The notes below the pieces were generated by a model, which saw only the letters and a list, made by a program, of their open reading frames with translations, did not search any database and was not told the origin of the DNA. From contig NZ_CP107947.1 of NCBI RefSeq assembly GCF_036059255.1, positions 4,774,001-4,838,000 on the forward strand: a DNA stretch of 64,000 nt, given 5' to 3'. Origin of the DNA: Micromonospora sp. NBC_00389 (GTDB lineage Bacteria; Actinomycetota; Actinomycetes; Mycobacteriales; Micromonosporaceae). The position numbers and the translations under genes are program-made. Within the stretch, counting starts at the first letter, position 1, and the number at the start of each line of letters is the position of its first letter. This document shows positions 14,266-38,905 of this stretch, one piece after another.

Positions 14266-14407
14266 CGACCCGGATCGACGCGGGGTAGTGCCAGCGGGCG
14301 TGTAGCAGCGCCTGTAGCAACGATGACGAACGACGGCGGACCACCAATGGCTCTTGACGGGGACGACGAGGGCCGGGCCGGCCGCGGGTGGACGCAACCG
14401 GAAGGCA

Positions 14408-14565
14408 GGGTGGCGTCGGGCGATGTCGGGGAGCTGCGCGCCGGCGGTGACTCGTCGCTGCAGGTGGGCGAAGTTGGTTCGTTCGCCTTCCCACACCACC
14501 AGCTCGCCGTCGAGGACGGCACCCGGCTCGACGGCTTCGGTGACGGCTCGGGTGATGTCTGCTGG
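14408..14565 (-). repeat. 158-base direct repeat, copy 1 (ligase gene piece)
   Basis: Bases 14408-14565 equal 19279-19436 with one visible mismatch (T at 14541 against C at 19412). On the minus strand it encodes ADITRAVTEAVEPGAVLDGE and then LVVWEGERTNFAHLQRRVTA, an internal part of an ATP-dependent DNA ligase. The upper end of both copies stops at the same base. Below 14408 the ligase similarity ends. The rest of the 14266-14841 gap contains no gene I can support. Confidence 0.85.
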
Positions 14566-18624: not shown

Positions 18625-19436
18625 TCACTCGATCAACAACGGCACCTCAAACGTCGACATGTCCGCCCGTAAACGCAAGTAGCGGACGTGGTGTCGCCAC
18701 CGGTGATGTTCGTAGGCGGTGTCGACGTCGATTTCCGCGACGATGCTGGGAGTGACGGGGGAGTACGGCAGGGTTGGGGCCGGTCGAGTTGTCCGGTCCA
18801 CGCGGCGGGCAGGGGTTGCGGCCAGGGGTGTGACCCCTGCGGGTCGACGGGCGTGAGCAGGGCGGCCAGTTCGGCGCGCTGTGCGGGTCGTAGAGGGCTG
18901 GTTCGACCGGTGTAGCGGAGCCGTCCATGCTGATCGCAGCGGCCCAGCAAGAGGGTCTCGGGACCTTCGATGCTGGGGGAGACGCCGCCGATGATGGCTT
19001 CGGTGGTGCGGTAGGCCCGGACTTTATGCCAGCCACGTCGGCCCGGTTCGTAACGCCCGTCGAGGTGTTTGATCACGACGCCCTCAATGCCCGCGGCGGT
19101 CCAGGTCGTCAACCATTCGGCGGCCTGGTCGAGGTCGGCGGTCTGTGGGGACAGGGTGAGTTGGGCGGGTGCGCCGGCGAGCAACTGGGTGAGCAGGGCA
19201 CGTCGCTCGTGCAGGGGCCGGTCCAATAGCGGTCGGCCCGGTGGGGCGCTGAGCAGGTCGAAGACGACGTAGTGCGCGGGGTGGCGTCGGGCGATGTCGG
19301 GGAGCTGCGCGCCGGCGGTGACTCGTCGCTGCAGGTGGGCGAAGTTGGTTCGTTCGCCTTCCCACACCACCAGCTCGCCGTCGAGGACGGCACCCGGCTC
19401 GACGGCTTCGGCGACGGCTCGGGTGATGTCTGCTGG
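18625..19436 (-). pseudogene. ATP-dependent DNA ligase, C-terminal three quarters
   Basis: From 19436 down the strand encodes ADITRAVAEAVEPGAVLDGE (motif III region), HYVVFDLLSAPPG, AGIEGVVIKHLDGRY (motif IV, EGVVIK), GWHKVRAYRTTEAIIGG (motif V) and the OB-fold part. A single frameshift near 18785 leads to the true end, AEIDVDTAYEHHRWRHHVRY ... EVPLLIE-stop. The nucleotidyl-transferase start with the catalytic Lys is missing here. It lies 9 kb away at 28401-28634 on the same strand, in the right order. So this is the 3' part of a gene split by an insertion, since frameshifted. Confidence 0.85.
19279..19436 (-). repeat. 158-base direct repeat, copy 2
   Basis: The 5' end of the ligase C-terminal relic, matching 14408-14565 with one visible mismatch. 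Beyond the shared end, both flanks carry a similar imperfect motif: GGATTTCAGAATGGTCCGAA at 14617-14636 and GGATATCAGAACTGTCCGAA from about 19443. Confidence 0.85.
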
Positions 19437-19793
19437 CGATGTGGGATATCAGAACTGTCCGAATGCTGGCCTTCGTGGCGCCTGGCGATGCTCGATGAAG
19501 AAGTGTGTCGAGGCGGCGTAGTCGTGGAGGTGCCGAGGCACGCCGGGTGTGGTCGCGAGCCCAGGGGGATCCTGACCCTGAATCGCATGGAGCCCGTGCT
19601 CGCGTGACACGTAGTTCAGCGGCGCACTGCCCCTGGGCGCGCGGTCAGCGGCATAGAAAGAGTGCATTGCTGTGGTTGGTCCGGCTCGAAGGTGTTTCCG
19701 CGGTGTTGAGCACCGTTGTGGCGAGTGAAAGACGCGGGGTAGTGTCGTTGCACTGCACGTGCTAACGTCTCTTGGCATGTGCAGGGTCCGCTT
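19437..19793. other. Left border of the presumed insertion; no recognisable gene
   Basis: About 357 bases between the split point of the ligase gene and the ArsR-like gene. A minus-strand frame of about 109 codons (19449-19778) shows less GC bias than real genes here and no family resemblance. The first 35 bases carry the GGATATCAGAACTGTCCGAA motif. The region should contain the promoter of the operon starting at 19794. Confidence 0.4.
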
Positions 19794-20126
19794 ATGAGTG
19801 CTCCTGGGATGGCCGGGGACGATCTGTTACAGGTGCTGGCGGCGCTGGCCAGCCCACACCGCCTGCGGGTCGTCGCGACGTTGGCTCGGGAGCGCAACTA
19901 CGTGAGCCAGCTGGCCCGCGAGCTCGGCATCAGCCGGGCGCTGCTGCAGGTCCACCTCCGCAAGCTCGAGGCAGCCGGTCTGGTATCGGCGCACCTGGAG
20001 CTTTCCGAAGACGGGAAAGCGATGAAGTTCTACGAAGTCAACGAGTTTGTCTACACGCTCACGCCGCAGTCCATCGCGGTCGCGGCGCAGTCGCTTACGA
20101 CGCCAGAGCCGGTGGAGGAGTCATGA
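19794..20126 (+). CDS. ArsR-like winged-helix transcriptional regulator
   Basis: A 110-residue protein, almost entirely a winged helix-turn-helix: LQVLAALASPHRLRVVATLA, then YVSQLARELGISRALLQVHL as the recognition part, then a wing ending EDGKAMKFYEVNEFV. I see no metal-binding cysteines, so it is probably a small-molecule or lipid-responsive member rather than a metal sensor. The ATG at 19794 has CAGGG upstream. The stop overlaps the next start (ATGA). As first gene of the operon with an MMPL transporter it likely represses that operon. Confidence 0.85.
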   Translation: MSAPGMAGDDLLQVLAALASPHRLRVVATLARERNYVSQLARELGISRALLQVHLRKLEAAGLVSAHLELSEDGKAMKFYEVNEFVYTLTPQSIAVAAQSLTTPEPVEES

Positions 20127-20392
20127 GCGGAAACGACTGGGCCGAAGTGGTCGGGGCCGTCGGCATCTTCGCGTTCATTACCACCGTGATCGCGGTGATC
20201 ATCGTACAGGTGGCCACCACGCTGCGGGCGAAGGCAGCCCTCGCCCGCGAGGACGAATATCGCAAGCTCGCCGAGAGGGCGGTCCAGCTACAGGAGGCCA
20301 CGGAGCAGCGGTTGGCCGCTATCGACGATCAACTTGGGCAGACGCAGTCCCGGCTCGCCTCGATCGAGCGGGTCCTCAAGCAGGTCGAGTAG
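20123..20392 (+). CDS. Small membrane protein with coiled coil
   Basis: An 89-residue protein: one N-terminal transmembrane helix (VVGAVGIFAFITTVIAVIIV) and then about 55 residues of heptad-like charged helix (LAEREDEYRKLAER-type pattern, QLGQTQSRLASIERVL). The start overlaps the ArsR-like stop by 4 bases, so translation is coupled. Short proteins of this design often sit beside regulators or efflux pumps; it could tether the regulator or pump to the membrane, but no function is known. It precedes the MMPL gene by 115 bases. Confidence 0.7.
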   Translation: MSGNDWAEVVGAVGIFAFITTVIAVIIVQVATTLRAKAALAREDEYRKLAERAVQLQEATEQRLAAIDDQLGQTQSRLASIERVLKQVE

Positions 20393-20507
20393 CCAGGTAG
20401 GTCCCGGGCCGTCGAGGTGCAACTCGACGGCCCGGGTGAAAGACGCACCGCCTCGCCCAAGGGCGAGTTCTCTCCGGAACGTTCCTTCACCGAAAGGACA
20501 GCATTTC

Positions 20508-22733
20508 ATGCTGCCCAGAAGCAAACCCGGCGGTCCGCTCATCGAGCGAGTCGCCGGGTGGTCGATCCGCCATCGGTACCTCGCGGTGCTCGGTTGGCTC
20601 GCGCTCGTCGTGTTCGCGGTCCTGTCGAGCGCGCTGATTCCAGGGGATGAGGCTCGTTCCGTCGACCCGGGCGACTCCGGTCGCGCCCAACAGGCATTGC
20701 GGGCGCAGCAGGTCTACGAGCCCATCCGCGAGAGCGTCCTGGTGCAGGCACGAGCTTCCGGTGCACCGCGGCTGCTCGACGACCCCGCGGCGCGGGCCAC
20801 GATGGAAGATCTTGTCACCGCGTTGCGGGAGTCGGGTGCGGTGGCCGACCTGCGGTCGCCGCTGGCAGCGGACAGCGTGGAGTTGCTCTCCCAGGACGGC
20901 CGGTCCGGCTTGGTCACCTTCCAGGTGGCTGGAAGCGATGATCAGCGAGTCGCCAAGTACGAGACAGCGGTCGGCGTGATCGAGGCGGCGACCGCCCGGC
21001 ACCCAGACATGCGGGTAGCGCAGGCCGGCGACCGGAGCCTGTCGGTCGCGGTCGACCAGGCCGTCCAAGACGATCTCCAACGCTCAGAGCTCATCTCGCT
21101 GCCGCTGACCGTGGTGATCCTGCTGGTCGTATTCGGCTCCCTCGTCGCGGCGGGCATCCCGCTGCTGCTTGCGGCGACCACCGTCGCAGGCACGTTCGGG
21201 TTCCTGCAGACCATCGGGCACTGGATGCCGATCAACAGCGCCGCCTCCTCGATGGTGCTGCTGATCGGGGTGGCGGTCGGGATCGACTACTCGCTGTTCT
21301 ACATTCGCCGGGTACGGGAAGAACGCGTCGCCGGCCGCGGCATCACCGAGGCGCTGCAGGTCACCGCGCGTACCTCCGGGCACGCCGTGGTGGTCTCCGG
21401 GCTCACCGTCATGCTGTGCGTGTGCGGGCTGCTGTTCACCGGGCTCGACAACCTACAGGGCCTTGCCGTCGGCGCGGTGCTCGTCGTCGGCCTGGCGATG
21501 ACCGGTTCGGTGACCGTACTGCCAGCGCTGCTTTCCCTGCTCGGGCGGCGCGTGGATAGCGGCCGGGTCCCGTGGCTGGGCCGGCGGCGAACCGCTGCGG
21601 CGCAGTCGCGCGCATGGTCGGCGGTGGCGCGTTCGGTGGTGCGGCGTCCACTGCTTTGGGGCGGCGTTGCGAGTGCGGCACTCGTTGTCGTGGCGCTACC
21701 CGCGCTCGGGATGCGGCTGCAGGACGCGGCCGTGACCGACAGCCTGCCGCGAAGCGTGCCCGCCGTCGACGCCGCGATCCGGATGCAGGAGGCGTTTCCC
21801 GGTGCGGCTACGCCATCACGGGTGGTCATATGGCGCACTGACGGCAGCGATGTCGACGGTCCGGCGGCGCGGCAGGCGATCGACGAACTGCGCCGGCGGG
21901 TCGCCGGGCCCGTCGCCGTGGTCGAGGTCGACCAGGCCCTGGTGGTGCGGGTCCCGCTGCCGGGCGGCGGCACCGACGCCACATCGAACGCCGCGCTGAA
22001 TGCCCTCCGCGATGACGTGCTGCCGGCCACCCTCGGCAAGGTTCACGGCATCGAGTACGCGGTGGCCGGACGGACAGCGTTCGCCCACGACTTCACCGAC
22101 GTGGTGCGCGACCGCAGCCCACTGGTCTACGCATTTGTCCTCGTGATGGCGTTCATCCTGCTCATGGTGGCGTTCCGTTCGGTGGCGATCCCGGCGGTGT
22201 CGATCGTGCTGAACCTGCTGTCGATCGGCGCCGCATACGGCGTGGTGACCTGGGTGTTCCAAGACGGCCACCTGACCTCGGTGCTCGGCTTCACCCCGTA
22301 CGGCGGGGTGGTCGGCTGGCAGCCTCTGTTCATGTTCGTCATCCTGTTCGGCCTGAGCATGGACTACCACATCTTCATCCTCAGCCGGATCCGCGAACGG
22401 TGGACCGCCGGAGCGACCGCCCACGACGCGATCGTCGGCGGCATCAGCACCAGCGCCGGCGTCGTCTCCAGCGCCGCCGTCATCATGACCGGCGTCTTCT
22501 CGGTCTTTATCACCCTCGGCGCGATCGAATACAAGATGCTTGGAGTCGGGATGGCGGTCGCCGTGATCATCGACGCCACAATCGTTCGCGGAGTCCTGCT
22601 ACCAGCAGCGCTGGCGCTCCTCGGCGCTCGCGCTTGGACTCTGCCCGGCCGCCGCACGTCACGAGACCCAGTACCCGATCCGACGAGTTCCGCCGCCGGT
22701 ATACCCATGCCGAAGCCAGCAAGCATCACCTGA
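20508..22733 (+). CDS. MMPL-family RND transporter
   Basis: A 741-residue inner-membrane transporter with about 12 helices in two repeats. The N-terminus IRHRYLAVLGWLALVVFAVL is the first helix, followed by a periplasmic domain. Helices 2-6 contain the family block MVLLIGVAVGIDYSLFYIRR. The second repeat has FVILFGLSMDYHIFILSRIR with the proton-relay Asp. MMPL proteins export lipids, siderophores or drugs using proton flow. The ATG at 20508 has GAAAGGA upstream. Cargo of the same operon as the ArsR-like regulator, which suggests inducible efflux. Confidence 0.9.
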   Translation: MLPRSKPGGPLIERVAGWSIRHRYLAVLGWLALVVFAVLSSALIPGDEARSVDPGDSGRAQQALRAQQVYEPIRESVLVQARASGAPRLLDDPAARATMEDLVTALRESGAVADLRSPLAADSVELLSQDGRSGLVTFQVAGSDDQRVAKYETAVGVIEAATARHPDMRVAQAGDRSLSVAVDQAVQDDLQRSELISLPLTVVILLVVFGSLVAAGIPLLLAATTVAGTFGFLQTIGHWMPINSAASSMVLLIGVAVGIDYSLFYIRRVREERVAGRGITEALQVTARTSGHAVVVSGLTVMLCVCGLLFTGLDNLQGLAVGAVLVVGLAMTGSVTVLPALLSLLGRRVDSGRVPWLGRRRTAAAQSRAWSAVARSVVRRPLLWGGVASAALVVVALPALGMRLQDAAVTDSLPRSVPAVDAAIRMQEAFPGAATPSRVVIWRTDGSDVDGPAARQAIDELRRRVAGPVAVVEVDQALVVRVPLPGGGTDATSNAALNALRDDVLPATLGKVHGIEYAVAGRTAFAHDFTDVVRDRSPLVYAFVLVMAFILLMVAFRSVAIPAVSIVLNLLSIGAAYGVVTWVFQDGHLTSVLGFTPYGGVVGWQPLFMFVILFGLSMDYHIFILSRIRERWTAGATAHDAIVGGISTSAGVVSSAAVIMTGVFSVFITLGAIEYKMLGVGMAVAVIIDATIVRGVLLPAALALLGARAWTLPGRRTSRDPVPDPTSSAAGIPMPKPASIT

Positions 22734-22821
22734 CTGAAAACCAGCGACGGATAACACACTCAACTCGACAGAAGCGGATGCGGCATGATGGGTCTGCTGC
22801 ACCGATAGGTGACAGTTTCAG

Positions 22822-23685
22822 TCACGCGGCCTGACTGGCCGGTCGGGTCATGATGGTCTCGTACTCGATAGGGGTCAACCGGGACAGGGATCGTTGGCGT
22901 CGACGGCGGTGGTAGGTCCGTTCGACCCAGGTCACGATCGCGGTCCTCAACTGCTGCCGGGTCGTCCAGGTTCGGCGGTCAAGGACGTTGTTCTGCAGCA
23001 GGCCGAAGAACGATTCCATGGCGGCGTTGTCGCCGGCGGCGCCGACTCTGCCCATCGACCCGGTCACGTGGTGCTGGTTGAGGGCACGGACGAATTTCCG
23101 GCTTCGAAATTGCGACCCGCGGTCGGTGTGCAGCACGCAGCCGGCCACGTCACCACGGCGGGCTACGGCGTTGTGCAGGGCGTTGACGGCCAGCCTCGAT
23201 TTCATGCGTGAGTCGATGGAGTAGCCGACGATCCGGTTGGACCACACGTCCTTGATCGCGCACAGATACAGCTTGCCCTCACCGGTGCGGTGTTCGGTGA
23301 TGTCGGCCAGCCACAACCGATTTGGGCCGTCCGCGGTGAAGTCGCGGCGCACCAGATCGTCGTGCACTGGCGGACCGACCTTGCCGCCCTTGCCCCGACG
23401 CTTCTTCTTGCTGAACGCGCTCCACCAGCCCATGCCGGAGCAGATTTTCCATGCGGTGCGCTCGACCATCGGCTGGCCGGCAGCGCGGGCCTCATCGGCC
23501 AGGAACCGATATCCGAACTCCGGGTCATCGCGATGGGCGTCGAACAACGCGTCCGCCCGATACGCCTGCGCCAGTTCGGCGTCGGTGACACGGCGGGCAA
23601 GCCATCGGTAGTAAGGCTGACGAGCGATGCTTAATACCCGGCACGTCACCGCCACGGGGACCCCGTCGGCGGCCAGCTCGCTCAC
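22822..23685 (-). CDS. IS3-family transposase orfB (DDE integrase domain)
   Basis: A 287-residue frame with the IS3 orfB layout: N-terminal helical HTH_21 part (ARQPYYRWLARRV, RFLADEARAAGQPM), then the rve integrase core with the DDE triad: Asp in NRLWLADITEH, Asp in VLHTDRGSQF, and Glu in DNAAMESFFGLLQ 35 residues later. GTG at 23685 overlaps the orfA stop. It is probably made mainly as an OrfAB fusion through -1 frameshifting at the slippery G-GGA-AAA heptamer about 20 bases before the orfA stop; the fused frame reads KRLYPLVSELAADG. Confidence 0.92.
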   Translation of the reverse strand: MSELAADGVPVAVTCRVLSIARQPYYRWLARRVTDAELAQAYRADALFDAHRDDPEFGYRFLADEARAAGQPMVERTAWKICSGMGWWSAFSKKKRRGKGGKVGPPVHDDLVRRDFTADGPNRLWLADITEHRTGEGKLYLCAIKDVWSNRIVGYSIDSRMKSRLAVNALHNAVARRGDVAGCVLHTDRGSQFRSRKFVRALNQHHVTGSMGRVGAAGDNAAMESFFGLLQNNVLDRRTWTTRQQLRTAIVTWVERTYHRRRRQRSLSRLTPIEYETIMTRPASQAA

Positions 23686-24017
23686 GAGCGGGTAGAGCCT
23701 TTTCCCGGCAGATGCGCCTGCGACAAGTACGCCGCGGCCCGGCGCAGGACCTCGTTCTCCTGCTCGAGTAGCTTGATCCGCTTACGGGCCTCACGCAGCT
23801 CGGCCGAGTCGCTGCCACTGACGCCAGGCTTGGTCCCGGCGTCGATGTCGGCCTGGCGCAGCCACTTGAACAACGTCATCGGGTGGACCCCGAAGTCCTT
23901 GGCGATCTGCTCGACCGACACGCCAGGCTCCCGGTCACGGGCCACCCGCACGACATCATCGCGGAACTCACGGGGGTAGGGCTTGGGCACAGCAACATCC
24001 TTCCAGCCCGCCACCAA
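23682..24017 (-). CDS. IS3-family transposase orfA (helix-turn-helix protein)
   Basis: A frame of up to 111 codons encoding the DNA-binding half of the transposase: YPREFRDDVVRVARDREPGV, EQIAKDFGVHPMTLFKWLRQ as the helix-turn-helix, then a leucine-zipper helix (ELREARKRIKLLEQENEVLR). The true start may be a GTG a few codons inside, since homology begins at VAVPKPYP. The stop overlaps orfB by four bases. Confidence 0.9.
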   Translation of the reverse strand: MVAGWKDVAVPKPYPREFRDDVVRVARDREPGVSVEQIAKDFGVHPMTLFKWLRQADIDAGTKPGVSGSDSAELREARKRIKLLEQENEVLRRAAAYLSQAHLPGKGSTRS

Positions 24018-24155
24018 GGCAAGCCATCTCAGATGTCACCTATCGGTGCAGCAGACCCGATCGCCCCGTGCGGCGGCTACTCGTTACAGGCCCGGCGCTT
24101 GGGTAGCTGTCCCAGTCCGCAAATCTTTGATCTTGAAGCCAGTGGCGGGGACGTG

Positions 24156-24194
24156 GAACGGCCCGAGAGCGAGGTTGCTGCTCCCGGGCCGTTC
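24156..24194 (-). terminator. Strong hairpin terminator of the recombinase operon
   Basis: GAACGGCCCGAGAGC (24156-24170) pairs with GCTCCCGGGCCGTTC (24180-24194), 15 bases with one mismatch and a 9-base loop. It lies 11 bases beyond the stop of the hidden frame at 24205, which supports that frame as the operon's last gene. Confidence 0.75.
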
Positions 24195-24204
24195 GGGTGT
24201 GTAT

Positions 24205-24387
24205 TCAGCCGACGGTGTCGCGCTCGTGGAGGTCGAGGGGTTCGATGTCGTCGTCCTGGTGGTCAGGCTCGGCGGGGACGTAGAGGTCGGGGTAGCGCAG
24301 GGCGTCGGGGCCTTCGTCCCAGTCGAGCCGGTCGGGCCATTCGCGGCACTCGGCGATGGTGAGGGCGCGGGTGGCGGCGCGTTCAAT
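24205..24387 (-). CDS. Hidden 60-codon acidic reading frame, fourth gene or C-terminal extension of the recombinase operon
   Basis: Directly after the zinc-ribbon gene another frame reads RAATRALTIAECREWPDRLD, WDEGPDALRYPDLYVPAEPD, and ends DIEPLDLHERDTVG. Nearly every third base is G or C, as in real genes of this genome. There is no ATG, GTG or TTG. The frame could begin at an ATT (24387) that overlaps the preceding TGA as ATTGA, or be joined to the upstream protein by a +1 frameshift. The stop is followed at once by the operon's terminator. The product would be small and very acidic; I recognise no family. Existence is moderately supported, its mode of initiation is open. Confidence 0.5.
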   Translation of the reverse strand: MERAATRALTIAECREWPDRLDWDEGPDALRYPDLYVPAEPDHQDDDIEPLDLHERDTVG

Positions 24388-26788
24388 GTCGGCGGCTGAC
24401 GTCGGCTGCGTAGGTGGTCCAGTCTCCGGCGCAGGCTCGTTGCCATCTGACCGCGCCTTTGATGTCGATGCCGAGTACGCGTGCCAGGATCGCGGCGGGC
24501 AGTTCGGTGGCGAGCTGGAACAGTGCCGCGGTCCGTGCTTCCGTGACCTGGATGCCGATCCGCGTCAGGCGGTCACGGAGCGCGCCGTCGGTGATGGGGC
24601 GCCCGGCGAGCCGGCCGGGGAACAGCCACGTCTGGCTGCCCACGTGGGTGTGAGAGCAGGTTCTGGCGGTGACGAGTTCGCGGGTCAACGCGGCGAGCGG
24701 TTCGGGTATCTCGATGGGCCGGTCGCCGAGTCGTATCCGCACGTTGTCGTCGGTGACCTGCACGTGGCCGAGGGTGAGCCGGCTGACGTCGGCGGCGTTC
24801 TGGGCGTAGAGGATCACGAGCAGCCCGGCGACGCGGTCGGCCAGGTCGATGGTGTGGTCATGAAGGAGCCGGCGGGCGATCTCCCACCGGCGATCGCCGT
24901 CGATGGGTGCACCTGGCCCGCCCCATTGCTGGACGGGTAGGTAGACCGTTGTCAGCTTGTTGGCGTTCGCCCAGCGCAGGAAGGCGCCGACTGCCTTGCT
25001 GTTGCGGATCTGTCCGCCGGCGAGCCACCGGTCGACGTGGGTGTGGGTGCAGGTGGCCAAGGTCAGGTGATCGGCTCTGAGCAGGCCGAGGAAGCTGATG
25101 ACGGCGCGGGTCTGGTCCCGCACCGCGCCGCACTGATTGGTGTTGGCCCGGGTGCCGGCGACGCGACGGCGGAGCCGTCTGAGCAGGTGCCATACCGTGT
25201 ATTGCTGCACGAGGTGCCGCTGTGCCGGGTCTGGGATGGCGTCGATGGTGGCGTGCAGCCACCGTTCCAGCCGGGCCAGGAGCTCGTCGCGGGGCGGCAG
25301 CACTCCCGCGCCGACGAGTAGTTCTCGCAGGTACCGCCCGGCTTTGTCGGGCTCCAGCGCGTCGAAGGTGTCGTGAGTGAGCGGGATGCGGCCGGTGGCG
25401 AGGTCGGACAGCAGGGAGCGGGCACGCGGCTGGCGATGCAGCCAGGCCGACACGTTCTCGGGCCGGTCGCCAGCCACGAGGAAGCCACGTAGTGCCTGCA
25501 GCGGGGCGGGGATCGCGCCGGTGTGGTCGGCCAGGAGCCGGTCAAGCCGGTCGCTGAGCGCACAGCGCTTGCACATGGCGGCCGTGAGCTGGCCGGAGAC
25601 GCCGCAGCGGGGACAGCACAGCCAGAGGTCAGGTTCGGCCCGGGTGCAGGCAGCGCACAACGGCCGGTCGATCGTGCCGCTGCGCACGAGCCGTACGTGG
25701 CTGCAGCCGGCGCACCTCATCCGCCTGCTTCGGCAGGGCACGCACCACGGCAAGCCCGTGGCTTTCGAGGTTTCGCAGTGCGCGAGCCGGCCGCAGATGG
25801 AGCAGGCCTGCACCGGTGGCGGTGTCCGGCACGCCTCGCAGACCGGCCCGTCGTCGGTCCGGGCGTAAACACGACGGCGTCGGCCGCAGCGCACGCACGG
25901 CTTCAGGTTCGCCGGGTCGGTCGCGTTGCAGTACCGACACAGCGGGCGCCCCTGCAGATCGCGGGCGGACGGTTCGCGGACCTTGCCGCAGCGGCTGCAT
26001 TCCACTTCACGGGACTTGCCGGCGCAGGTACGGCAGACCCGCGCTCCGTCGCGGAACTCGACCAGCGCAACAGTGCGCCGGCAACCGGGGCATCCGGGCG
26101 GGCGGATACGGGTAGCGCCCCGTGCGCGGAGGTGGTCAATGAGCAGCAGCACCGTGTGGGTCGGAGCGTCGTGCCCTTGTCCGGCGAGCAGGTCTGGGCG
26201 TTCTGTTACGGCCCAGGCGAGCCGTCGCAGCTGCTGCGGCTTGGGCGCCGACGCACGCACGGCTTCCTCGACCAGGTGAGCGGGAATGCCGGGGTCCGCC
26301 GCGGCGACGGCCGCAGCGACCGCCTGCAGGCACGCGGCGCGGTCCGCCGGCGTGCAGCGGGCACACAGCGCACGCCCGTCCCGATCCCGGCTGTGCGCCT
26401 TCGTGATTCGCTCACAGGAAGCGCAGGCCTCCCGTCGCGGGCCACACACCGAGCAGTACCACTGCCCGCCGCGTCGCCACATGTTCCTCACCAGGCCCTT
26501 GCCGCAGCCCGCGCAGCGTGGCGCCGACACCTGCGCCAGGCCCTCCTGGCGTAACGCCAGGAGGAGCTGGCCCACGACCGAAGGAGCCGGTGATTGGCCG
26601 TCGACGAGCACCTGCGGCCGCTCCGAGATCGCCTGGGCCAGCCGACGACGCTTGGCGGCGTGGCCGCCCACCACCGCGGCGACCGTGGCCCGCACCAACG
26701 CGGGGTCAACTGTTGGATCAACCCAGGTGATGGCCTCCACGACGGGAAGCAGCAGGTCAAGCTCGGTTCTGCTGTCCGCAGCGGTCAC
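24383..26788 (-). CDS. 801-residue multi-zinc-ribbon protein with degenerate tyrosine-recombinase-like C-terminus
   Basis: Residues about 1-80 are helical. Residues about 92-408 contain 16 CxxC pairs (CAGC, CSVC, CASC, CARC, CPGC, CRTC, CSRC, CRYC, CVRC, CEAC, CSIC, CVPC, CAGC, CAAC, CPRC, CKRC), enough for eight zinc ribbons. Residues about 560-795 resemble a tyrosine recombinase (SAM-like part, then RVAGLLVILYAQNAADVSRL, IRLGDRPIEIPEPLAAL, QTWLFPGR, RLTRIGIQVTEARTAALF). The first catalytic Arg (normally GLR) and the HxxR box are not evident; a Tyr remains in DWTTYAADV. So it is probably an accessory DNA-binding subunit rather than the catalyst. GTG at 26788 overlaps the HTH gene's TGA. Confidence 0.8.
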   Translation of the reverse strand: MTAADSRTELDLLLPVVEAITWVDPTVDPALVRATVAAVVGGHAAKRRRLAQAISERPQVLVDGQSPAPSVVGQLLLALRQEGLAQVSAPRCAGCGKGLVRNMWRRGGQWYCSVCGPRREACASCERITKAHSRDRDGRALCARCTPADRAACLQAVAAAVAAADPGIPAHLVEEAVRASAPKPQQLRRLAWAVTERPDLLAGQGHDAPTHTVLLLIDHLRARGATRIRPPGCPGCRRTVALVEFRDGARVCRTCAGKSREVECSRCGKVREPSARDLQGRPLCRYCNATDPANLKPCVRCGRRRRVYARTDDGPVCEACRTPPPVQACSICGRLAHCETSKATGLPWCVPCRSRRMRCAGCSHVRLVRSGTIDRPLCAACTRAEPDLWLCCPRCGVSGQLTAAMCKRCALSDRLDRLLADHTGAIPAPLQALRGFLVAGDRPENVSAWLHRQPRARSLLSDLATGRIPLTHDTFDALEPDKAGRYLRELLVGAGVLPPRDELLARLERWLHATIDAIPDPAQRHLVQQYTVWHLLRRLRRRVAGTRANTNQCGAVRDQTRAVISFLGLLRADHLTLATCTHTHVDRWLAGGQIRNSKAVGAFLRWANANKLTTVYLPVQQWGGPGAPIDGDRRWEIARRLLHDHTIDLADRVAGLLVILYAQNAADVSRLTLGHVQVTDDNVRIRLGDRPIEIPEPLAALTRELVTARTCSHTHVGSQTWLFPGRLAGRPITDGALRDRLTRIGIQVTEARTAALFQLATELPAAILARVLGIDIKGAVRWQRACAGDWTTYAADVSRRH

Positions 26789-27120
26789 TTCTCGACACCC
26801 GTGATGCGGGCCCGTTTGGGCCGCAGATCCCCGACCCCCGCCTGCCCGGAGGCGACCGCCTTGCGTGGCCGGGCGGCCGCCTGGGCTGCGACGGGCTCGA
26901 CCAGGTCGTCCATCCGGCAGTCGAGGATGTCCAGCAACGCCATCAAGACCTTCAAGCTCAAGCGCTCCGGCCGCTCGACGACCAGCCGATAGACCTGACT
27001 GGAGGACAGCCGGATACCTCGCTCGGCCAAGGGCCCGAGCAGGTCGGTGGTGGAGAACATGCCGCGGCTGGCCATCACCTGGCGTAGATGCCACCGGTAA
27101 TCCAGCTTGGCGCCGCTCAA
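26785..27120 (-). CDS. Small XRE-like helix-turn-helix protein of the recombinase operon
   Basis: A 111-residue protein. Residues 8-75 fit a compact Cro/XRE-type helix-turn-helix (WHLRQVMASRGMFSTTDLLG, LSSSQVYRLVVERPERLSLK, VLMALLDILDCRMDDLVEPV). The C-terminal 35 residues are basic and disordered (RPRKAVASG, LRPKRARITG). A TTG start at 27120 overlaps the integrase TGA, and the stop overlaps the zinc-ribbon start, so all three are translationally coupled. Role inferred: excision/integration accessory factor or operon repressor. Confidence 0.85.
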   Translation of the reverse strand: MSGAKLDYRWHLRQVMASRGMFSTTDLLGPLAERGIRLSSSQVYRLVVERPERLSLKVLMALLDILDCRMDDLVEPVAAQAAARPRKAVASGQAGVGDLRPKRARITGVEK

Positions 27121-28295
27121 CGTCGCTCCTCGGCTCCGATGCCGCCGCCGGTGAAGGCCGGCGACAGCGCCCTACGCAACGCCGTACTCATGAAGTCGTC
27201 GCTGACATGGGTATACACCGCTGTTGAGCTGTCGCGCTCATGCCCAACCTGCTGCTGAATGAATCGCCGGTCCACGCCGTCCTCGGTCAGGTGCGTCACA
27301 TACGAGTGGCGCAGCGAGTGCACCGTCAGTCCCTTCGACATCCCCAACGCCTCACGATAGGCACCGAAGCGGGCGTTGATCTCGGCCGGCTTGATGCGGC
27401 CACCCCGCTCAGTGACCCACATGGCCGGGTGCTCCTCTGAGCCGAACCGCGGCCGGACGTTGTGCACGTAGTCGGCCACCGCCTCCACCGCCCATCCCAT
27501 CACCGAGGCGACGTTCCGCCGGCGCGGCTGCTGGCCCCGTTTGGCCTTCCCGTAGCGCACATGCAGCATCCCGAACCGGTCGAACTCCGGAGCCGCCGGG
27601 TTGCGGCCCCAGTCGAGCAGGTCCAGCTTCGCGGTCTCTGTGCGCCGCAGCCCCCACCCGTAGATCACCTTGAACAAGGTGGCATCGCGATACGCCGCCA
27701 GCGCCCCCTTGCGCCCGGCCCGAACCGCCCGGCCGACCTGATCATCGGCATAGTCCAGGAACCGCTGCAGCTCCTCCCGAGTGAAAGCACGTGCCTCGGG
27801 ATCGCCCTCGTAGTCGTCCAGGTGCGACAGTGTGTTCCACTCATGGCAAACCGGGACAGGACGCGTTCCGAACGCCTCCTGACACGCCGCTACCCAGCCA
27901 TACCGGCCATCGGTCAGGAACTCGGTGAACAACCGCAACTGGCCCTGGTAGCTGCGGATCGTCGACGGCCGCAGATGCTTCTCGCTGGTCAACGACAGCG
28001 ACCATTCGTCCACATGAGAGGCCGACCACGCCCAGGGAAACTCATTCGTGAAGGCCAGAAAACCACGGACCAGATGCTCCCGCTGCGCGATCGTCTCCTC
28101 TCGCAGCCCCCGCGCCGTCTGCTGCGCCCGCCAGCCCCGCAGCATCGCCTCCACCATCGCCTCCTGAGGTCGCAGCTGCACCACACCGGCGACCAGCTCC
28201 AGACCCGCCGAACCTGCCAGGTTAGCCCGCCCCACTCGCCCTCCCCGAGCTCGCATGACGGGTGAATCATGCATCAGACGGGATCGATAGTCCAA
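27117..28295 (-). CDS. Tyrosine-type site-specific recombinase (integrase)
   Basis: A protein of up to 392 residues with a core-binding SAM-like domain (about 45-135) and a full catalytic domain. Residues (numbered from 28295): Arg217 in YGWGLR217RTE, Lys250/Lys252 in RYGKAKRG, His326 and Arg329 in TVHSLRHSYVTHL, His352 in QVGHERDSS, nucleophile Tyr361 in AVYTHVSDDF. All are intact, so it should cut and rejoin DNA. Starts at 28295 (TTG), 28274 or 28256 (ATG) are possible; none has a strong ribosome binding site. It leads the int-HTH-zinc ribbon operon and lies next to the N-terminal half of a split ligase gene. Confidence 0.92.
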   Translation of the reverse strand: MDYRSRLMHDSPVMRARGGRVGRANLAGSAGLELVAGVVQLRPQEAMVEAMLRGWRAQQTARGLREETIAQREHLVRGFLAFTNEFPWAWSASHVDEWSLSLTSEKHLRPSTIRSYQGQLRLFTEFLTDGRYGWVAACQEAFGTRPVPVCHEWNTLSHLDDYEGDPEARAFTREELQRFLDYADDQVGRAVRAGRKGALAAYRDATLFKVIYGWGLRRTETAKLDLLDWGRNPAAPEFDRFGMLHVRYGKAKRGQQPRRRNVASVMGWAVEAVADYVHNVRPRFGSEEHPAMWVTERGGRIKPAEINARFGAYREALGMSKGLTVHSLRHSYVTHLTEDGVDRRFIQQQVGHERDSSTAVYTHVSDDFMSTALRRALSPAFTGGGIGAEERR

Positions 28296-28400
28296 AAGCC
28301 CAGCTCACTGCCCCTCTGACCGAGGGCGTAATCGGTCACAGGTAGGCTCCAGAGCTAGCAGCTCACGAGGGAACGAGCCCATCCGATGCAATTTCCGAGG

Positions 28401-28634
28401 GTTGGGGAAGTAGGTGGTGATGTCCCGGCCGGCTCGGGACTGCAGGTACACGGTGTCGGGCCGGCGGAAGGCCAGTGCCCGCCAGCCGTCCCACTTCGGC
28501 TCGTAGGCCAGGTCCGATGCCTCACGGACAGTGTCGACGGCCTTCGCCAGCCTCGGCGTGAGCGGCGGACGCAGTCCGTCGGTGGTGCCGACACGCCGAC
28601 GGGCTCGAGTCACCGCAGGACCGACCCACGACAT
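28401..28634 (-). pseudogene. ATP-dependent DNA ligase, N-terminal part
   Basis: The minus strand encodes LRPPLTPRLAKAVDTV, LAYEPKWDGWRALAFRR (motif I with the catalytic Lys) and VYLQSRAGRDITTYFP (motif Ia). Similarity ends at about 28401, after which the frame runs into unrelated sequence towards the integrase. The missing continuation, starting ADITRAVAEAV, is found at 19436 downward on the same strand. Joined, the two parts make one ligase of about 345 residues with no obvious missing residue. Confidence 0.82.
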
Positions 28635-38614: not shown

Positions 38615-38655
38615 GGTAGACGTTGTCTACCATCTCGGCGTAGACGATGTCTACG
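38615..38655. promoter_or_regulatory. Two tandem 17-base palindromes (putative operator) upstream of fabH-maoC
   Basis: GGTAGACGTTGTCTACC (38615-38631) and CGTAGACGATGTCTACG (38639-38655) are each perfect palindromes around a 3-base centre, sharing GTAGAC-NNN-GTCTAC, with centres 24 bases apart. They lie 35-75 bases before the FabH start. The form fits binding by two TetR-family dimers. No TetR gene adjoins. Confidence 0.75.
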
Positions 38656-38684
38656 CATTCGGCGGCCCGGTCGAAGTCGCTGCT

Positions 38685-38905
38685 CTATGGGGACAGGGTG
38701 AGCTGGGCGGGCGCCTCGGCGAGCAACTGTGTGAGTAGCGCACGTCGCTCGTGCAGAGGACGGTCTAGCAGAGGTCGACCCGGTGGACGCTGAGGAGGTC
38801 GAAGACGACGTAGTGCGCGGGGTGGCACCGAGCGATATACCCGGGAGCCGCACGCCAGCGGTGACTCGTCGCTGCAATTGGGCGAAGTTAGTCCGCTCGC
38901 GGGTC
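38685..38905 (-). pseudogene. Heavily decayed fragment of ATP-dependent DNA ligase
   Basis: In shifting frames the strand reads ERTNFAQLQRRVTAGVRLPG, HYVVFDLLS, LHERRALLTQLLAEAPAQLT and LSP-stop, clearly related to the ligase part at 19200-19390 but with indels, substitutions and an in-frame stop. Both ends stop abruptly. It is an older copy than the 158-base repeats. Confidence 0.75.

Follow-up and report, generated by a model that had tools for sequence, protein, structure and literature searches.

A tyrosine recombinase, HTH and zinc-ribbon operon as the probable recombination module of a site-specific actinomycete mobile element usually located at tyrosine codons of other recombinases

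The operon on the minus strand of the window (the whole 64,000-nucleotide stretch of Micromonospora sp. NBC_00389 DNA that was analysed) encodes a tyrosine recombinase (A), a small helix-turn-helix (HTH) protein (B) and a zinc-ribbon protein (C) and is probably the recombination module of a site-specific actinomycete mobile element that would usually reside at tyrosine codons of other recombinases. We assign this reading a probability of roughly 0.85. The compared sequences show the layout of the element, which starts upstream of A, runs through A, B, C and optional cargo and finishes at a conserved right end. The features of the copy in the window, in its own 5' to 3' order, are:

28404..28634, minus strand: 5' part of the target, an ATP-dependent DNA ligase (PF01068, E = 1.4e-6, profile 1-57)
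19431..28403, minus strand: whole mobile element, 8,973 bp, within the ligase gene (empty-site comparison, end motifs)
28379..28403, minus strand: left end AACCCTCGGAAATTGCATCGGATGG, conserved across insertions in different genes
28261..28280, minus strand: a further core-like site, close to where A begins, possibly an operator or recombinase site; recurs by eye in relatives
27117..28295, minus strand: A, tyrosine recombinase with a complete catalytic set (PF00589, E = 4.7e-19; longest frame)
26785..27120, minus strand: B, small Cro/C1-type HTH protein (Pfam HTH_26, E = 3.2e-14)
24383..26788, minus strand: C, 801 aa, 16 CxxC motifs and a dead recombinase-like C-terminus
24145..24205, minus strand: hairpin downstream of C (folding z = −5.5)
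22790..24058, minus strand: IS3-type insertion within the trio element; its terminal inverted repeats are 25 bp long and perfect
20334..22733, plus strand: cargo MMPL-family transporter, start uncertain (PF03176, E = 3.8e-70)
19779..20126, plus strand: cargo ArsR-type regulator (PF01022, E = 1.6e-11)
19431..19464, minus strand: right end ATTCGGACAGTT... to ...CCAGCA, conserved right-end motif
18643..19430, minus strand: 3' part of the target, the same ligase, with a frame change near 18.8 kb (PF01068 profile 57-203; tblastn in two frames)

A, B and C are consecutive and overlap at their junctions (TTGA for A/B, GTGA for B/C). The catalytic residues of A (R217, K250, H326xxR329, H352 and Y361) are all invariant among 14 aligned sequences, in agreement with the first-pass annotation, which had seen a complete catalytic set in the first protein only. 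The open frame of A begins with a TTG at 28295 and the alignment of its relatives starts further in; its true start is uncertain and might also lie further in. That annotation had described four overlapping minus-strand frames, the last of them a hidden acidic frame joined at ATTGA. The first three stand, but the fourth was dropped as a gene because, read by eye, its junction has no ATG, GTG or TTG start, and because searches of the fetched loci and of plasmids did not support it: the former yielded only its own locus and L052, where the match is limited to residues 1-21 and these overlap C at its end, and the latter four weak Rhizobium matches (E = 0.07-0.4). The terminator proposed to follow the operon is upheld in part, in that the hairpin is strong (none of 200 shuffles was equally stable) but is followed by UUCC rather than by a U-run.

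The third protein had been described as joining 16 CxxC pairs to a degenerate recombinase-like end, and both halves of this description are supported. Shuffled versions of C contain a mean of 1.92 and a maximum of 7 CxxC motifs (300 shuffles), and 24 cysteines are invariant among 14 aligned sequences. A profile comparison of 39 C-termini of C proteins with 19 tyrosine recombinases gave a probability of 79.6% (E = 1.5e-5); as read from the alignments, C retains the second arginine but has other residues in place of the first one, of the histidines and of the tyrosine. Comparison of whole C with A found nothing (probability 0.2), PF00589 is touched by only 2 of 14 C relatives (best E = 0.0087), and the C protein of the window has no family match in Pfam, NCBIfam, PHROGs or PADLOC. 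Structure models of C are poor (mean pLDDT 53.6 and 54.5); Cre or XerA accounted for 10 of the first 11 Foldseek matches to the C model, at E values (0.1-0.5) that are not significant, and a search of solved structures with C gave only weak matches of zinc-finger type (best E = 0.013). We read C as a probable dead recombinase with a zinc-ribbon array, its recombinase fold being suggested by the one profile comparison.

Of 300 sampled genomes from the same family as the window's genome, 79 contain relatives of C, many of them as fragments, and such relatives are also present in 257 plasmid records, 46 of which span at least 80% of C, chiefly from Streptomyces, Rhodococcus and Arthrobacter. Among the matches listed, the plasmid relatives are mostly labelled hypothetical protein or site-specific integrase. 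A search of genome contigs with one sequence returned one fragment. Among 39 loci fetched from the better C matches in the 300 genomes, 30 carry A, B and C in this order on one strand (the exceptions being L052, L061, L070, L075-L079 and L081), so that the integrase-HTH-zinc ribbon order, whose recurrence had been proposed as a check, does recur. Earlier insertions have left remains at other places in the same genome as the window, in the form of two decayed fragments of C (G000:C1:2182574-2182801 and 4768314-4768574).

Two other roles for the operon were set aside. A phage module was rejected because 50,697 phage records contain no C match and the sole IMG/VR contig with one represents a trio that has entered the integrase gene of a phage; when other C proteins were used in four additional viral scans, no relative came up. 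A defence system was rejected because PADLOC has no match for A, B or C.

When trio loci are compared, their common blocks begin upstream of A and end sharply. In the window, the interruption of the PF01068 domain falls between 28401 and 19433, which corresponds to profile position 57/58. The ligase is uninterrupted in three relatives (L115-L117; genomes G231, G305 and G341), at six places over the whole query, three of which were aligned. Because these copies give the empty site TACTTCCCC|GACATC, the element is delimited to 19431-28403, 8,973 bp, with no duplication. Cargo lies between C and the right end in the window element and in L047; several copies lack cargo and have lengths near 4.1 kb. 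Further ligase fragments lie in the window at 14405-14565 (98.8% identical to 19276-19436) and 38649-38900 (84% identical to 19108-19357), indicating that the region was rearranged more than once. There are two uninterrupted ligase copies in G305 and three in G341, so that the ligase, too, may be carried by mobile DNA.

A second empty site concerns an element that the Rhodococcus plasmid pDK3 carries in two different integrase genes (99.975% identity over 4,071 bp). R. jostii RHA1 has one of these genes in uninterrupted form on its plasmid pRHL2, and the protein joined across the pDK3 insertion is 100% identical to that form over 199 aa. At the DNA level the comparison gives a clean insertion of 4,067 bp between flanks that are 99.8% and 98.4% identical, the junction showing neither loss nor duplication of a base, and joined flanks are likewise open recombinase frames in L093, L150, L089 and L090. 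These comparisons show precise insertion, without duplication or loss of target. An inverted repeat around the joint reached a best identity of 46% at a 6-bp offset, which is suggestive but not significant, as 16% of column shuffles equalled it. The first-pass annotation had interpreted the operon as a transposition or integration module and had suggested a comparison of occupied and empty sites; with the genes co-occurring in order and with empty sites in both the ligase and the pRHL2 integrase gene, two points on which it had said that its reading could fail, its interpretation is supported.

We mapped 35 left junctions of the window's subfamily and counted 34, since L141 duplicates L153. 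They derive from the C-based searches, from a pattern search for the left end (7 matches, spread over 5 of 394 genomes; in the control, 0 among the matches listed) and from a search of plasmids with left-end DNA (28 records, of which six, from Escherichia, are evidently unrelated; 13 matches fetched). In 25 of the 34 insertions the interrupted gene is the tyrosine recombinase gene of another element, whether phage, Tn554-like or the A gene of a sister element. Measured past the start of the codon for the catalytic tyrosine, the distance to the junction is 6 nt in 17 of these 25, 10 nt in six (L043, L093, L135, L140, L150 and L154) and 9 nt in two (L145 and L147, which have adjacent tyrosines and were assigned by Pfam position 165). 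In a Pfam scan, PF00589 ends at profile positions 165-167 in 19 of 30 left-flank proteins. The match is partial in L043 and L089, L146 has an N-terminal recombinase domain only, and L042, L049 and L149 have no match, their recombinase identity being read by eye. The usual site shown by these junctions is 6, and sometimes 9 or 10, bases past the first base of the codon for the catalytic tyrosine. Given only 28 PF00589 matches in the 7.87 Mb of the window's genome, repeated chance landing at such codons is not credible.

The nine other sites comprise four in ligase genes (the window, L044, L045 and L047, at homologous positions), two in ISL3 transposase genes (L050 and L051), one in an IS3 gene (L094, by eye) and two in no assigned gene (L092 and L136). 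A T occupies position −6 in 31 of 32 distinct sites, and the target motif is weak at other positions. Many sites are on plasmids or close to other mobile genes. The interrupted gene in L090 and L042 is A of a second trio, with B and C of this second trio following after the right end; L157 has its insertion in a phage integrase gene whose product is 51% identical to that of Gordonia phage Finkle. The sites are not all independent, as L091 and L152 lie in related recombinase genes: these are Tn554-like genes on two plasmids of one Mycolicibacterium strain, and both trios carry an MFS transporter and a MerR-type regulator.

The sites used by other subfamilies seem to differ. A second subfamily of about 12 kb has its own ends (L058, L059, L072, L073 and L074), its five copies being 93-99% identical between different flanks. 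Two of the five (L059 and L074) interrupt ATP-dependent ligase genes in their C-terminal part, which again connects these elements with ligases. In L048, L055, L062, L063 and L069 the trio seems, by eye, to follow directly after genes for peptidase-like proteins or cell-wall hydrolases, at their 3' ends.

In the mechanism that we propose, A would cut and join DNA across a short spacer starting with the nearly invariant T at −6. This spacer would consist of six target bases left beside the left end, as the parts of PMC10214605 drawn on here describe for strand-biased circularizing integrative elements (SEs). C would be a non-catalytic partner of recombinase fold whose zinc ribbons might hold the ends or find the target, and we infer that it may be the DNA-binding platform suggested in the first-pass annotation. 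B would control expression or direction, and a carrier plasmid or phage would spread the element. As the tyrosine codon is kept but the rest of the target protein is replaced, the carrier's recombinase is probably crippled. More tentatively, and at somewhat less than even odds, these could be elements of a class that uses the region of the catalytic-tyrosine codon as attachment site and silences a competitor's recombinase, with C as the reader of the site. Such a site could hardly mutate without harming the recombinase, which might be why it is found on phages, plasmids, transposons and the element's own relatives.

Alternatively, the interrupted recombinase might still work, with a new C-terminal tail provided by the insertion. 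The tyrosine is indeed kept, and the left end continues the reading frame as NPRELHQTG at the 6-nt sites, but the six 10-nt sites read another frame and the left end shows no coding constraint (49 of 241 changes synonymous versus 31 of 144 expected). A coding tail was rejected on the latter ground, which also makes damage to the carrier's recombinase the probable outcome, and we regard the idea of a still functional target as improbable. The link to recombinase genes might instead reflect tolerance alone, the element landing anywhere in mobile DNA and surviving there. The many sites on plasmids or near mobile genes would fit, as would a T at −6 as the sole strong base, but 25 of 34 insertions share one codon region instead of being spread along genes, and this makes mere tolerance very improbable. 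Because a truncated recombinase frame stands directly before A in those 25 loci, it could also be argued that this fragment is a fourth gene of the element rather than its target. Yet the fragments differ in kind (phage integrase with an arm domain, Tn554-like, A-type), a ligase, ISL3 or IS3 gene takes their place at other loci, two copies cease to be identical at the junction, and the remainder of the gene is located past the right end; the exact empty site contradicts the idea as well, and its probability is close to nil. A site-specific element usually located at the tyrosine codons of other recombinases remains the reading that we prefer.

If this is true, conflict between mobile elements becomes testable, for example by asking whether insertion immobilises the carrier. 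The recurrent site recalls inteins and homing introns, which sit in conserved catalytic motifs. Since C relatives occur in so many plasmid records and, among the matches listed, mostly bear the name hypothetical protein or site-specific integrase, a number of the integrases annotated on actinomycete plasmids may in fact be targets that have been truncated. Attachment sites already known for integrating elements are, among others, tRNA genes and ssb, according to the parts of PMC8138268 and PMC5385486, respectively, that were used here.

The element has what is general to site-specific tyrosine-recombinase elements, namely a catalytic recombinase, fixed ends, precise insertion and empty sites. 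It might be only a divergent GInt, SE or Tn554-like element, with C as a reshaped form of GinC, Tfp or TnpB and the gene count as the sole difference. As far as the portions of PMC5385486 and PMC10214605 used here go, GInts and SEs share with it the arrangement of a recombination operon, cargo and a short other end, and a dead recombinase partner is common to both. Against this stand the single catalytic recombinase, instead of two or three, the lack of any NCBIfam or Pfam match for C, and the plasmids pBD2 and pRHL2, carriers of the actinobacterial Tn554-like Famint36/41 pair, on which C had no match at E 0.001 in a single-sequence search run without a positive control. Identity with that pair was rejected on the last point, and we consider a divergent member of these groups unlikely, with a chance that is still appreciable.

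GInts carry a ginABCD operon of three integrase-like genes and GinD, all essential, in the account taken from PMC5385486. Like the present element, they have the recombination operon at one end, variable cargo and a short other end, one recombinase-like protein without some catalytic features, a small DNA-binding-like protein and high site specificity, often within a gene (ssb in the GInt example). They differ from the set of one catalytic recombinase, one HTH and one zinc-ribbon protein found here, and in their recurrent target. SEs encode intA, tfp, intB and srap, are given in the sections used of PMC10214605 as found in Gammaproteobacteria only, have a joint at which imperfect inverted repeats enclose a 6-bp spacer, and leave no empty site on excision. 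They resemble the present element in a coupled or overlapping operon, a catalytically dead recombinase-fold protein (Tfp) and precise borders, and they keep six target bases beside one end, as may be the case here; unlike it, they have two catalytic recombinases (IntA and IntB) and Srap. With regard to Gamma-mobile-trio elements, C had no NCBIfam match at E 1, and hence none to GmtZ, and A scored 34 of 340 bits against GmtY, far below the cut-off.

Tn554 and its actinobacterial relatives, as covered in the relevant parts of PMC3414803, likewise have several proteins, one of them long and recombinase-like, make no target duplication and occur on actinobacterial plasmids. However, both TnpA and TnpB have the catalytic motif there, usually with TnpC, whereas the long protein here is dead and bears zinc ribbons, and Tn554-like recombinase genes are among the targets. 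RIT (recombinase in trio) elements, described in the same parts of PMC3414803, also have three adjacent overlapping genes, but a possible catalytic motif is present in all three RIT families and in one of the three proteins here. None of the papers searched describes an A-B-C operon or a tyrosine-codon target. One catalytic recombinase with a dead partner makes a small system in which to study the pseudo-recombinases of GInts and SEs. Because the layout of GInts and SEs is shared but the number of catalytic recombinases is not, and because Tn554-like and RIT elements use two or three, we file the element as a separate variant of the multi-protein tyrosine-recombinase kind, set apart from GInts, SEs, Tn554 and RITs by its gene content.
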